A stretch of DNA of 49,065 bases from Spongiibacteraceae bacterium (GTDB taxonomy: Bacteria; Pseudomonadota; Gammaproteobacteria; Pseudomonadales; Spongiibacteraceae). The DNA lies in NCBI GenBank assembly GCA_002710725.1, contig PAKT01000028.1, positions 1 to 49,065 of the forward strand, in the 5' to 3' direction. The notes beneath the pieces are model-generated. The model ran no database searches, was not told where the DNA came from, and saw only the letters and a program-made list of their open reading frames with translations. This document shows, piece by piece, positions 10,387 through 15,170 of the stretch. The position numbers and the translations under genes are program-made. The number at the start of each line of letters is the position of its first letter. Position 1 is the stretch's first letter.

Positions 10387-10409
10387 AAGCCCGTTAATCG
10401 GGCTTTTTA
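10387..10409 (+). terminator. Rho-independent terminator of rpe-gph
   Basis: A seven-base-pair stem AAGCCCG / CGGGCTT closes on a five-base loop TTAAT and runs into a T tract. It lies ten bases after the gph stop. The same bases encode the last residues and the TAA stop of the convergent DUF488 gene. On the minus strand there is no T tract after the stem, so termination is expected mainly for the plus strand. Confidence 0.85.
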
Positions 10410-10978
10410 TAGGCGCAGCGCCTGCTCTGCTCGCGCCAGGCATTTTCCAGACATTCCTCTTCTCCGGTCAGCATGTCCGGCACGATCCCCGTTTCGTCCA
10501 TCAGCCTTCGAGCCAGCGCTGATTCGCTTTCCAACTCACCGTCGTGATTGATATGGGCGATATCCAGCCCGTGCTCGCGCTTCAGAAAATGCGCAATCAG
10601 CAGGCTGCGGTGACAGACTGCCGGGTCTTTCTCGGCGCAGGTCAGGGCAATCGAAAAACCTTTGTCGAGCCCATCGAGTAGGCGCTCCACGCCGCGCAAA
10701 AATGCGCTTGAGCGCTGCAGACGATCAAACTGTACCTGGCCGTTTTCATAGTGCGCGTCGTAGGGAGAGCGCGGCCCGAGCTCCTCGCCGAGATAGACGT
10801 AACGTATACCCGCCTTGCGCAGATGTTCTATCAGGTTCTCCCGGTGGTAGTCGTGAAAGGCCTTGCTGTAGGGCACTGAGCGCACGTCCGCCACCACATT
10901 AATGCCGTGAGCGTGCAAGTGGGCGATAAAGGTTTCGATGGCTTTGGTGGCGTAGCCGATACTGAACAGGGCAGGCAT
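10394..10978 (-). CDS. DUF488 family protein
   Basis: A 194-residue member of the DUF488 family, whose biochemical function is not established. Recognisable elements are FSIGYATKAIETFIAHL near the N-terminus, VVADVRSVPYSK, YLGEELGPR and the conserved cysteine segment LTCAEKDPAVCHRSLLIAHFL. An open frame extends to 11212, but the ATG at 10978 places the family motif at residue 4 and avoids covering the trp promoter and leader. No strong ribosome site is visible. Its 3' end lies within the gph terminator loop. It is divergent from trpE and not obviously linked to it in function. Confidence 0.85.
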   Translation of the reverse strand: MPALFSIGYATKAIETFIAHLHAHGINVVADVRSVPYSKAFHDYHRENLIEHLRKAGIRYVYLGEELGPRSPYDAHYENGQVQFDRLQRSSAFLRGVERLLDGLDKGFSIALTCAEKDPAVCHRSLLIAHFLKREHGLDIAHINHDGELESESALARRLMDETGIVPDMLTGEEECLENAWREQSRRCAYKKPD

Positions 10979-11058
10979 GAAAGGGCAGAGTCGCAAGGCT
11001 GAAGAGTCAACAGGCGCTGAGTGTAGCGGTGGCACCGGGCCGCCGCAAATCCGCAGTT

Positions 11059-11086
11059 TTACAAACCCGGGCGCTGGGGTAGAATG
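11059..11086 (+). promoter_or_regulatory. Sigma70-type promoter of the trp operon
   Basis: A -35 TTTACA (11059-11064) and -10 TAGAAT (11081-11086) are separated by 16 bases, each five of six matches to consensus. The start of transcription would fall near 11093, giving a leader of about 150 bases before trpE and about 30 before the trpL start. Confidence 0.7.
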
Positions 11087-11115
11087 CGCCTTTGAATTCA
11101 TCCTTTCATCTGGAG

Positions 11116-11228
11116 AAAACGGTGATCTGCTCCGCTCACACAGCGCTGCAATCTGATACCCGCCGATGGCGATGGTAGGCCCCTGCGTACGTGCAAGCAC
11201 GCCCCTGAACATCGTTATTCACCGTTTT
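11116..11228 (+). promoter_or_regulatory. Complementary arms spanning the trp leader
   Basis: AAAACGGTGA at 11116-11125 is an exact reverse complement of TCACCGTTTT at 11219-11228. The first arm covers the trpL GTG start; the second ends at a T tract just before the trpE ribosome site. Pairing would hide trpL initiation or create a terminator-like stem. This is a sequence observation only; a regulatory role is inferred. Confidence 0.4.
11122..11178 (+). CDS. trpL: trp leader peptide TrpL
   Basis: A short reading frame, GTG at 11122 to TAG at 11178, encodes 18 residues: [23 protein letters not shown] ribosome site at 11112-11115 is correctly spaced. Two Trp codons (11167-11169 and 11173-11175) sit immediately before the stop and alternate with Arg codons. 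Tandem or near-tandem Trp codons in a translated leader upstream of trpE are the hallmark of attenuation, which is known for Pseudomonas putida trpE. I did not find a convincing terminator/antiterminator pair, so the mechanism downstream of ribosome stalling is open. Confidence 0.8.
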
Positions 11229-11242
11229 TGAAGGAAAGATCC

Positions 11243-12727
11243 GTGACTCCCGAACAATTTGCCGAACTGGCCCAGCAGCCCTATAACCGTATTCCGGTCT
11301 ATCGCGATGTGCTGGCTGACCTCGATACTCCCCTCAGCGCCTATCTGAAACTGGCGCGCGGCCCCTACAGCTACCTGTTCGAATCGGTGGAAGGGGGCGA
11401 GAAGTGGGGCCGCTATTCCATCATCGGTCTGCGGGCTTCCACCGTGCTGACTGTGCGTGGCAATGCGATTACTGTCACCGAAAATGGTCAGGAAATGGAA
11501 AGCCTGAGCAGTGAGGATCCGCTGGATTTTGTCGAGCAGTTTCAGGCGCGCTATCAGGCGCCGGACCTCGACGCTCTGCCGGCATTCAACGGCGGGCTTG
11601 TCGGTTACTTCGGCTACGACACAGTGCGCTACGTCGAGAAGAAGCTGGCAGCCACCTGCCCTCCGGACAAGCTCGGCAACCCGGATATACTGCTGATGCT
11701 TTCCGACGAGGTGGTTGTGTTCGACAACCTTGCCGGCGTTATCACCCTGATTGTGCACGCCGACCCCGCCGACGCCGATGCCTACAACAAGGCGCAACGG
11801 CGCCTGGATCAGCTGGAAACGCTGATGGCGGGTCCCGCGCCCGAGCTGGCGCGGCCCGCAACGGTGCCGGGCGAACTGCCCGAATCGGCCTTTGAATCGG
11901 AAGTGGGCGAAGCCGGTTACAGCGCGATGGTGGAGCGGGTAAAAGAATACACGCTCGCTGGCGATGTCATGCAGGTGGTGCCATCGCAGCGCCTGTCCAC
12001 GCCGTTTAATGCCGAGCCGATCAATCTCTATCGCGCCCTGCGACGACTGAATCCCTCACCCTATATGTTTTATCTGGATCTGGACGATTTTCATATCGTC
12101 GGTTCCAGCCCGGAAATTCTGGCGCGGGTAGAACACGGTGAAATCACCTTGCGCCCGATTGCCGGTACCCGGCGTCGCGGCCATACCGAGGCCGAAGACC
12201 GGGCGATGGAGGCCGAACTGCTGGCCGACCCGAAAGAGATTGCCGAGCACTTGATGCTGATTGATCTGGGTCGCAACGATGTCGGCCGGGTCGCGGAAAC
12301 CGGTAGCGTGGTGGTGACCGATCAGATGGTGGTCGAGCGCTATTCCCATGTGATGCATATCGTGTCCAACGTTACCGGCAAACTGAAAGCGGGTTTCAGT
12401 GCGATGGATGTGCTGCGCGCCAGTTTGCCGGCCGGTACCTTGAGTGGCGCACCCAAAGTGCGGGCGATGGAAATCATTGATGAGCTGGAGCCGGTCAAGC
12501 GCGGTGTCTACGGCGGCGCCGTAGGCTATCTGGGCTTCAACGGCAATATGGATACGGCCATTGCCATTCGCACGGCGGTCATTAAAAACGGACGTCTTTA
12601 TGTGCAGGCGGGCGGTGGCATCGTCGCGGACTCGGTGCCGCGCCTGGAATGGAAGGAAACCATGAACAAGGCGCGGGCGATGTTCCGGGCTGCGGCGATG
12701 GTGCTGGACGGTAAGGGAGATCACTGA
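11243..12727 (+). CDS. trpE: Anthranilate synthase component I TrpE
   Basis: Converts chorismate to anthranilate using ammonia supplied by TrpG; the committed step of tryptophan synthesis. The GTG at 11243, after AAGGA, gives 494 residues beginning [18 protein letters not shown], aligned with Pseudomonas TrpE; a TTG five codons earlier is less likely. The N-terminal feedback site follows the LLESX10S pattern with LFES and the Ser of GRYS, so tryptophan inhibition is expected. The catalytic half contains [26 protein letters not shown] and the C-terminal GGGIVADS. It is one base from trpG, unlike Pseudomonas where trpE is separate from trpGDC. Confidence 0.96.
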
Positions 12728-12728
12728 A

Positions 12729-13307
12729 ATGCTGTTGATGATCGATAACTACGACTCCTTTACCTACAACATTGTGCAGTACCTTGGTGAACTCAAGGCC
12801 GAGGTCAACGTGGTGCGCAACGATGAGGTTTCCATCGACGACATTCGCGCGATGAAGCCCGAGCGCATCGTGGTGTCTCCCGGTCCCTGTACTCCCAATG
12901 AGGCGGGTATTTCCATGGAGGCGATCAAAGCCTTCGCCGGTGAGCTGCCGATACTGGGTATCTGCCTTGGTCACCAGAGCCTGGGGCAGGTGTTTGGCGG
13001 TAAGGTGGTGCGCGCCCGGCAGGTGATGCACGGTAAAACCTCTCCCATCTACCACGCGGATAAGGGTGTGTTTTCCGGCCTCAAGAATCCTCTGGTGGCG
13101 ACTCGCTATCATTCACTGGTGGTGGAAAAAGACAGTCTGCCGGATTGTCTCGAAATCACTGCGTGGACACAGACTGAAGCCGGTGAGGTCGATGAGATCA
13201 TGGGGCTACGGCACAAAACCCTGGACGTAGAAGGGGTGCAGTTTCACCCGGAATCAATCTTGAGCGAAGAGGGTCACGCCATGCTGGCCAACTTCCTTAA
13301 ACGCTGA
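12729..13307 (+). CDS. trpG: Anthranilate synthase glutamine amidotransferase TrpG
   Basis: Class I glutamine amidotransferase that delivers ammonia to TrpE. The 192 residues start [14 protein letters not shown] and carry the nucleophilic cysteine in GICLGHQ, plus the His-Glu pair in VQFHPESIL. No fused PabA-specific or TrpD extension is present. Because some bacteria share one amidotransferase between tryptophan and folate synthesis, this protein could also serve PabB. It follows trpE after one base and precedes trpD by ten. Confidence 0.95.
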
Positions 13308-13317
13308 GGGACAGTTT

Positions 13318-14352
13318 ATGGATATCAAGACTGCGTTGGGGCGCGCCATTCAGCATCTGAGCCTGAACACCGAAGAAATGGCCGCTGTGATGCGTGACAT
13401 CATGACGGGCCAGTGCACCGACGCCCAGATCGGTGCCTTTCTGGTGGCGCTGCGTATGAAAAGTGAAACCATCGACGAGATTGAAGGCGCCGCCAGAGTC
13501 ATGCGCGAGCTGGTTACGCCGGTGGATGTTGCTGATCTCTCTCATCTTGTAGATATCGTTGGTACTGGGGGCGACGGCGCCAACCTGTTCAATGTGTCTT
13601 CAGCCAGTACCTTTGTGGCGGCAGCTGCCGGCGCCGTGGTGGCCAAACACGGCAATCGCTCGGTGTCTTCCAAAAGCGGCAGCGCCGACCTGCTCGAGAG
13701 TGCCGGTATTAATCTGGGCTTGAGCGCCGAGCAGGTGGAGCAGTGCATTCGCGAAGTAGGTGTGGGTTTCATGTTTGCGGTTAATCACCACAGCGCCATG
13801 AAGCACGCTATCGGTCCGCGCAAGGAAATTGCCCAGCGCACCATCTTTAATATTTTGGGGCCGCTGACCAATCCAGCGGGCGTGAAACGCCTGTTGCTCG
13901 GTGTATTCAGTGCCGAACTGTGTCGGCCAATGGCTGAAGTGCTCAAGCGCCTGGGAGCCGAGCATGTGATGGTGGTGCATGCCAGCGACGGCCTGGATGA
14001 AATCAGTCTGGCTTCTCCCACCGAGGTGGCAGAATTGAAAGACGGTGTTATTAGCGAATACCGTATTACACCGGAAGACTGTGGTTTGAAAAGTCAGTCG
14101 CTGGTCGGTCTGGAAGTAGCCGACAGCGCGGCTTCACTGCAGCTGATTCGCGATGCCTTTTCCGGTGTGGACAGCGAGGTGGCCCGTAAGGCCGCCGATA
14201 TGGTTGCGCTCAATGCGGGTGCCGCTTTGTATGTAGCAGGAAAAGCCGATTCGCTTAAAGCCGGTGTGGCACTGGCGCAGCAAGTTATAGCCAGCGGCGC
14301 AGCACTGGAGAAAATGCAGCAGCTCGCCCAGTTTTCCCAAGGTTTGAAGTAA
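13318..14352 (+). CDS. trpD: Anthranilate phosphoribosyltransferase TrpD
   Basis: Transfers phosphoribose from PRPP to anthranilate. The 344-residue protein has the PRPP-binding [14 protein letters not shown], the [18 protein letters not shown] segment and the [11 protein letters not shown] motif of the nucleoside phosphorylase-like fold. The stop overlaps the trpC start as TAATG, implying translational coupling. Length and motifs are those of a monofunctional TrpD. Confidence 0.96.
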
Positions 14353-15170
14353 TGTCGACGCCCACGGTTCTTAAAAAGATTCTCGATCGAAAAGCGGAGG
14401 AAGTTGCTGAGCGTTCACAGAAAGTTTCTCTGGAAGCCCTGCGCGAACAGGCAAAGTCAGCGTCGCCCGTACGCGGTTTTGTCGCGGCGATGGAGCGCAA
14501 ACTGGCGGCGGGCCAGTCAGCGGTAATTGCTGAATGCAAAAAGGCCTCGCCTTCCAAAGGCGTTATTCGCGCCGATTTTCAACCTGCGGCCATTGCCCGC
14601 AGTTACGAGCAGGGCGGAGCGGCTTGCCTGTCGGTGCTGACAGACCGGGATTTCTTTCAGGGCAGTGAAGCCTATCTGCAGGAAGCGCGGGCGGCCTGTT
14701 CATTGCCGGTGATTCGCAAGGATTTTATCGTTGACAGCTATCAGGTGCTGGAAGCCCGCGCCATCGGCGCTGACTGTATTCTGCTGATTGCCGCCGCCCT
14801 CAATGATGCACAGATGCGCACCTTGTATGACGAGGCTCTGGACCTGGGTATGGATGTACTCATTGAAGTACACGACGAAGACGAGTTACTGCGCACGCTG
14901 CCCCTGGGCGCCAAGCTGGTGGGTATCAACAATCGCAATCTGCACAATTTTGAAACCTCGCTCGACAATACTTTTTGTTTGCTCGATAAAATTGGTGCAG
15001 ACCGGATTGTGGTGACCGAGAGTGCGATTCACACGCCCGCCGATGTGGCCGCAATGCGAGAGCGCGGGGTGAATGCGTTTTTGGTGGGTGAGGCTTTTAT
15101 GCGGGCAGAGGAGCCTGGGGAGAAATTGGCGGAGTTGTTTGGCGTCGGACGTCTGACGTCTGACGTCTGA
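14352..15170 (+). CDS. trpC: Indole-3-glycerol phosphate synthase TrpC
   Basis: Closes the indole ring from carboxyphenylaminodeoxyribulose phosphate. The 272-residue TIM barrel shows [43 protein letters not shown] and [11 protein letters not shown]. It is the monofunctional form, without a fused TrpF. The natural C-terminus appears to end near ELFG; the last eight residues (VGRLTSDV) and the stop codon are encoded by the first copies of a GACGTC repeat that begins at 15144. trpF, trpB and trpA are not in the window. Confidence 0.95.

Follow-up and report, generated by a model that had tools for sequence, protein, structure and literature searches.

A putative trp leader peptide with CGA-TGG codon pairs upstream of trpE in Spongiibacteraceae

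The locus described here raises the question of how a Spongiibacteraceae bacterium might sense tryptophan ahead of its trp operon, and whether a short open reading frame (ORF) found there serves this role. The window, that is, the whole stretch of DNA that was analysed, comprises 49,065 nucleotides (contig PAKT01000028.1 of assembly GCA_002710725.1). On its plus strand the short ORF is followed by trpE, trpG, trpD and trpC, in this order. The trpE gene (11243..12727), encoding anthranilate synthase component I, begins with GTG, and its product carries the Pfam domains Anth_synt_I_N and Chorismate_bind; trpG (glutamine amidotransferase, 12729..13307), trpD (13318..14352) and trpC (14352..15170) were likewise assigned with Pfam. 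A DUF488 gene on the minus strand (10394-10981) is divergent from the trp promoter.

As read from the window, the ORF extends on the plus strand from 11122 to 11178, with a GTG start codon at 11122-11124, 18 sense codons and a TAG stop codon at 11176-11178. A Shine-Dalgarno (SD) sequence, GGAG (11112..11115), is located 6 nt 5' of the GTG and is the same in two loci of the same genus, L004 and L005. The Trp codons occupy 11167-11169 and 11173-11175, the third-last and the last sense codons, respectively. Both belong to in-frame CGA-TGG (Arg-Trp) codon pairs, at 11164..11169 and 11170..11175, the second of which adjoins the stop codon, and both pairs are conserved among relatives. The leader stop is separated from the trpE start by 64 nt. 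Upstream, a sigma-70-like promoter is predicted, TTTACA-16-TAGAAT (11058..11085, 10 of 12 matches); one such promoter-like pair was found in the region versus 0.2 expected in shuffles, and its hexamers and spacing are the same in L004 and L005. The GTG frame with its ribosome site, the position of the two Trp codons and the near-consensus promoter had all been reported in a preliminary description of this DNA, and each was found where it had been placed. Three points were absent from that description: both Trp codons follow a CGA, the leader start is predicted to pair with the trpE SD region, and a canonical terminator is lacking.

Within the genus, L004 carries an identical leader, though the sequence 5' of the promoter has diverged, and L005 encodes a variant 18-residue peptide. 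In a second genus of the family (Zhongshania/Spongiibacter) the leader reads MVHKARITLLCDCRRWRW and variants thereof. All 15 Spongiibacteraceae genomes with a leader-type trpE have the leader, and its length is 17 or 18 codons in all 13 tabulated cases. The exact block CCGYCGATGGCGATGGTAG is kept in 13 of these 15 genomes, confirming conservation in close relatives, and all 13 of its occurrences in the family sit at the trpE leader. The remaining two leaders keep one Trp codon, ending in SRRWR-stop and TRRWRG-stop. A one-mismatch match to the DNA pattern of the block in genome G015 is far from the trpE-like gene and was taken as a chance match.

The order was sampled with 200 trpE upstream regions (120 loci plus 80 loci from named relatives), and about 110 of the 192 order genomes with the window's type of trpE were covered; some genomes are represented twice, and 196 of the 200 upstream strings are distinct. 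Trp-Arg-Trp (WRW) soon followed by a stop codon was detected at 128 of the 200 loci. When the search was confined to the 250 nt 5' of trpE, the pattern was present at 126 of 200 loci, compared to none of the 200 reverse strands and 0-1 after shuffling, in line with the earlier estimate that such a pattern is unlikely to arise by chance. Leaders with a single Trp-Arg block bring the count to 160 of 200 (L051, L073 and L182 were set aside beforehand). The placement of Trp directly before the stop codon, which the preliminary description had contrasted with the E. coli trpL layout, is indeed seen in the window, but it is not an oddity, being the commonest layout among WRW leaders (62 of 128). Outside the order but within the class, 69 loci were taken from the trpE matches, and a looser rule gave a candidate leader at 32 of them, compared to 1-8 in shuffles under the same rule. 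The leader is conserved in most of the sampled families of the order and in other orders of the class. Its N-terminal peptide is poorly conserved between families; what is conserved is the C-terminal R-W-R block together with its codons. Three TrpE matches of family f41 (L040, L044 and L045, in G253, G096 and G060) have an open frame, as reported, that is interrupted by one in-frame TGA or TAA stop codon.

Since the frame, its Trp codons and its position relative to trpE are conserved in genus, family, order and class, the earlier identification of a trp leader peptide stands, and on this comparative evidence the ORF is almost certainly a trp leader. Our core claim, that stalling of ribosomes within the leader senses Trp, appears very probable from the same sequence comparisons.

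The distribution of the Trp repressor, TrpR, bears on the same question. Of the 21 Spongiibacteraceae genomes, 15 have a leader-type trpE, and in none of these does TrpR exceed the cut-off; the six genomes without it (G010, G011, G013, G015, G018 and G020) all have TrpR. In those six genomes TrpR lies directly upstream of a TrpE-like gene (a 35-38% match), with 42-136 nt between the match edges (loci L021-L026 and L219-L222); Pfam was run on one of these TrpR-linked genes. Leader-type trpE and trpR exclude each other in Spongiibacteraceae, and the family shows a clean swap between a leader-controlled and a trpR-linked trpE. Across the 244 genomes of the order, TrpR exceeds the cut-off in 10 of 192 genomes with the window's type of trpE and in 45 of 52 without it, the latter number resting on absence from the list of trpE matches, with the 52 partly listed and the genomes compared by hand.

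A further feature of the leaders is that the codon before Trp is usually a rare one. Of the 128 WRW leaders, 104 use CGA for Arg, 14 CGT and 10 CGC, and CGA is found in 21 of 23 families. CGA stands directly before TGG in 133 of all 160 leaders, including 20 of the 27 single-Trp leaders, and in 73 of 95 leaders when the 120-locus subset is taken alone. Where one Trp codon, or the CGA between the two, has been lost, CGA frequently precedes the remaining or first Trp codon; the shared feature is therefore CGA directly before TGG. We also searched all loci, with no choice of leaders and no exclusions, for an SD-led short ORF with an in-frame CGA-TGG within 260 nt of trpE. Such an ORF was present at 137 of 200 order loci and at 31 of 69 loci elsewhere in the class, compared to 0 of 269 on the reverse strand and 0-2 in shuffles. 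Random windows elsewhere in the same records, a less clean control than the reverse strand, gave 4 of 426. The same search with other Arg codons yielded 38 of 200 and 3 of 69 for CGC-TGG (order and outside, respectively), 23 of 200 and 4 of 69 for CGT-TGG, 2 of 200 and 0 of 69 for CGG-TGG, 1 of 200 and 0 of 69 for AGG-TGG, and none in either set for AGA-TGG.

General codon usage shows no such preference. CGA makes up 8.9% of 9615 Arg codons in 424 neighbouring ORFs, where it accounts for 9 of 100 Arg codons before TGG, and within trpE it precedes TGG in 0 of 167 cases. On the 3' side, 147 of the 160 order leaders continue after the last TGG with an Arg codon or a stop. Here the Arg codons are mostly common ones (CGC 45, CGT 27, CGA 9, CGG 3), which places the CGA bias on the 5' side of Trp. 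Among the other 13 leaders, 12 have a codon starting with C or T at this position; of 191 leaders, 190 have C or T as the first base 3' of the last TGG. CGA-TGG is found in 0 of 9 leaders of family f21.

Bacteria decode CGA with tRNA-Arg(ICG), whose inosine forms a wobble pair with the adenine of the codon. In yeast, according to PMC6301793, the I-A wobble of a P-site CGA makes elongation less stable, in competition with A-site tRNAs. A literature search turned up no bacterial measurement of CGA-UGG. PMC1183508 predicts that non-regulatory codons lower the sensitivity of a leader, which makes the placement of CGA genuinely puzzling if the standard race model holds. A P-site role of CGA in sensing is suggested by the codon counts, and we put its chances a little below even. 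The wider proposal is more tentative still: trp leaders across Gammaproteobacteria may sense Trp through the CGA-UGG pair, P-site CGA sensitising UGG such that a single Trp codon would be enough. Should the pair be functional, sensing by a leader would depend on a neighbouring codon and on inosine wobble, and not only on the number of regulatory codons. In that case CGA-TGG would also provide a signature for finding trp leaders, including single-Trp ones that searches based on terminators or on consecutive Trp codons would miss.

The boldest form of this proposal invokes a +1 frameshift. Starvation at CGA-UGG would shift ribosomes onto GGC or GGU, whereupon they would pass the leader stop and open the trpE ribosome site. 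In 110 of 185 cases the +1 frame stays open, versus 102 expected (sd 5.9), which is not significant, and we rejected such a passage beyond the leader stop. The trpE frame of the window is open for 39 codons upstream; the relative L009 has a TAA in this frame, 12 nt 5' of the trpE start. Of the two forms, the plain codon pair is more likely.

CGA might instead act only through its slowness, holding the ribosome close to the Trp codons for timing, with its placement before UGG incidental. PMC4046918 does report slower translation of CGA than of CGU or CGC in the his leader of Salmonella, and CGA follows TGG in 7 of the 27 leaders that lack CGA-TGG. We nevertheless consider this explanation unlikely, because AGA and AGG, though rare too, together precede TGG at 1 of 269 loci, and because the Arg codon after the last Trp is mostly a common one. 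That AGA and AGG are rare yet unused favours the wobble pair over slowness alone. It is a good deal less probable that CGAUGG is conserved as a sequence element, for RNA pairing, as a protein site or as a hidden AUG, rather than as a codon pair. The nine bases TGGCGATGG are near-invariant in WRW leaders of 23 families, but the WRW search itself fixes eight of them, leaving only the A informative, and the flanking bases vary. The Trp block shows no enriched pairing with sequence 3' of it in the order leaders (7% at rank 0.05 or below, n = 128), and retention of CGA for such pairing was rejected. A hidden AUG for reinitiation was also rejected: relative to trpE it falls in the three frames at random (39/34/31 of 104), and the ORF it would open tends to close early, remaining open in 69 of 185 cases versus 101 expected from shuffles. 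This early closure before trpE looks as if an internal start were a cost that is contained. An action of the leader peptide or its small RNA in trans, as for peTrpL/rnTrpL of Sinorhizobium, has a precedent in PMC7298713; the poor conservation of the N-terminal peptide between families, with only the C-terminal R-W-R block and its codons kept, makes it highly improbable here.

How could stalling in the leader reach trpE? In the predicted free RNA of the window, the segment GAAAACGGUGA (11115..11125, plus strand), which includes the leader start codon, pairs with UCACCGUUUUU (11219..11229), directly 5' of the trpE SD, GAAGGA (11230..11235, as read from the window); the SD itself is partly paired. 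An inner helix between the Trp-codon block AUGGCGAUG (11166..11174) and CAUCGUUAU (11210..11218) is also predicted in the window's genus; its support is weak, such pairing not being enriched across the order. The fold of the whole region is no better than that of shuffles (z of -0.98; 32 of 200 shuffles were as good). The long-range helix has support from comparison within the family: over 10 haplotypes, 92 of 100 pairs are standard, compared to a mean of 87.5 when the 3' arms are permuted (P = 0.0036, a value that ignores ancestry), and both sides are altered at three pair positions, as expected of compensatory changes. The arms were put in register by hand, as MAFFT misplaced them on the family leaders. 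When pairing was ranked against mismatched genomes, 11 of 13 family leaders had a rank of 0.07 or below; the two lower-ranking loci, L015 and L017, contain an insertion, and their start was picked automatically. In the second genus the helix extends over the trpE SD and start codon. Beyond Spongiibacteraceae the pairing is patchy and weak, with 22 of 115 loci at rank 0.05 or below, a count that includes family members and is dominated by few families; a cruder choice of start gave 18-20% of 122. We therefore rejected an order-wide helix and claim it for Spongiibacteraceae alone. In several families, CCGTTTTTC is found just 5' of the trpE SD (L034, L035, L062 and L148).

Folding under constraints was applied to the 13 family leaders. 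Without ribosomes, the predicted probability that the trpE SD is unpaired is 0.23-0.47. A ribosome modelled at the leader start raises it to 0.45-0.75 in 12 of 13 leaders, L012 staying at 0.23. A ribosome modelled as stalled on the Trp codons alone left the helix unopened in these leaders, with no change in the probability. The helix opened only when a ribosome at the leader start or a queue was modelled, and in those cases too the trpE start codon frequently remained in a pair. Because a stalled ribosome alone does not free the trpE SD in silico, the model has to invoke either a second ribosome or timing during transcription. We see about an even chance that the long-range helix is the off-state.

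The helix could act instead as part of a composite terminator, with the same sensor: a stem of CGGUGA and UCACCG followed by UUUUU would end transcription unless ribosomes hold the leader open. The 3' arm does run into five U, in several other families ACCGUUUUU immediately precedes the trpE SD, and terminator-like sites were found in 16 of 130 leaders over all families, compared to 3-5 in shuffles. However, the loop would be about 93 nt, and L010, L011 and L012 have a shorter or interrupted U run while keeping the leader-start pairing whole or in part. With loops of up to 30, no terminator-like site was found in the window region or in the 13 Spongiibacteraceae leaders; L015 and L017, which have the insertion, do show one, as do 14 further leaders of the 130. 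Between leader and trpE, the insertion (about 144 nt, with terminator-like sites; L015, L017 and L176, Zhongshania-type) leaves the helix arms intact. Transcription attenuation of this composite kind is possible but doubtful. The leader would work like an attenuator, but as no canonical terminator was found in 13 of the 15 Spongiibacteraceae leaders, we call it a new variant, not an E. coli-type attenuator.

The model that we prefer can be summarized as follows. The ORF would encode the leader peptide through which ribosomes sense Trp ahead of the trpE-G-D-C operon. Under a shortage of charged tRNA-Trp, they would stall in the C-terminal R-W-R-W-stop, at UGG codons that each follow CGA. With CGA in the P site and UGG in the A site, decoding of UGG would become a slow, Trp-sensitive step, and owing to this effect of CGA one or two Trp codons would suffice. 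When Trp is plentiful, ribosomes would finish and leave, the helix of 11115-11125 with the pyrimidine stretch at 11219-11229 would form, and trpE would be off. If one ribosome is held on the Trp codons of the 18-codon leader and another over its start, the helix would be blocked and trpE turned on. We infer that the leader is translated, that ribosomes stall and queue on it, and that CGA acts from the P site; our preference is for a helix that would act on translation of trpE rather than on transcription.

Several known systems can be set beside this leader. At the gathering score, no Rfam family matched in the window, including Trp_leader and T-box, and T-box control was rejected on that ground. 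TnaC is marked by conserved Trp, Asp and C-terminal Pro residues and precedes a catabolic operon. An arrest peptide of this type, with a Trp-induced stall at the stop codon, was rejected, as only the R-W-R block is conserved here and the operon is biosynthetic. The E. coli trpL contains two consecutive Trp codons with no CGA before them. The window leader resembles it in being an SD-led short ORF with Trp codons just 5' of trpE, in a trp operon with its own promoter; it differs in lacking a canonical terminator, in having Trp codons that are split by Arg and placed at the stop, and in the CGA that precedes each of them. Within the same order, attenuation of trpE and trpGDC in Pseudomonas putida was reportedly described by Olekhnovich and Gussin in 2001. 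The leaders of family f21, which we take to be Pseudomonadaceae, end in ARWRWR plus one residue and differ from the window leader in having CGC or CGT in place of CGA. The Sinorhizobium meliloti peTrpL is likewise a trpE leader with Trp codons near the stop, but its Trp codons are consecutive. A terminator/antiterminator is described for it, and trans-acting products are reported (PMC7298713). Finally, ermC-type translational attenuation resembles our model in the predicted sequestration of a downstream ribosome site that is relieved by ribosomes on the leader, whereas here the signal would be shortage of Trp, not a drug, and the pairing partner would be the leader's own start region.
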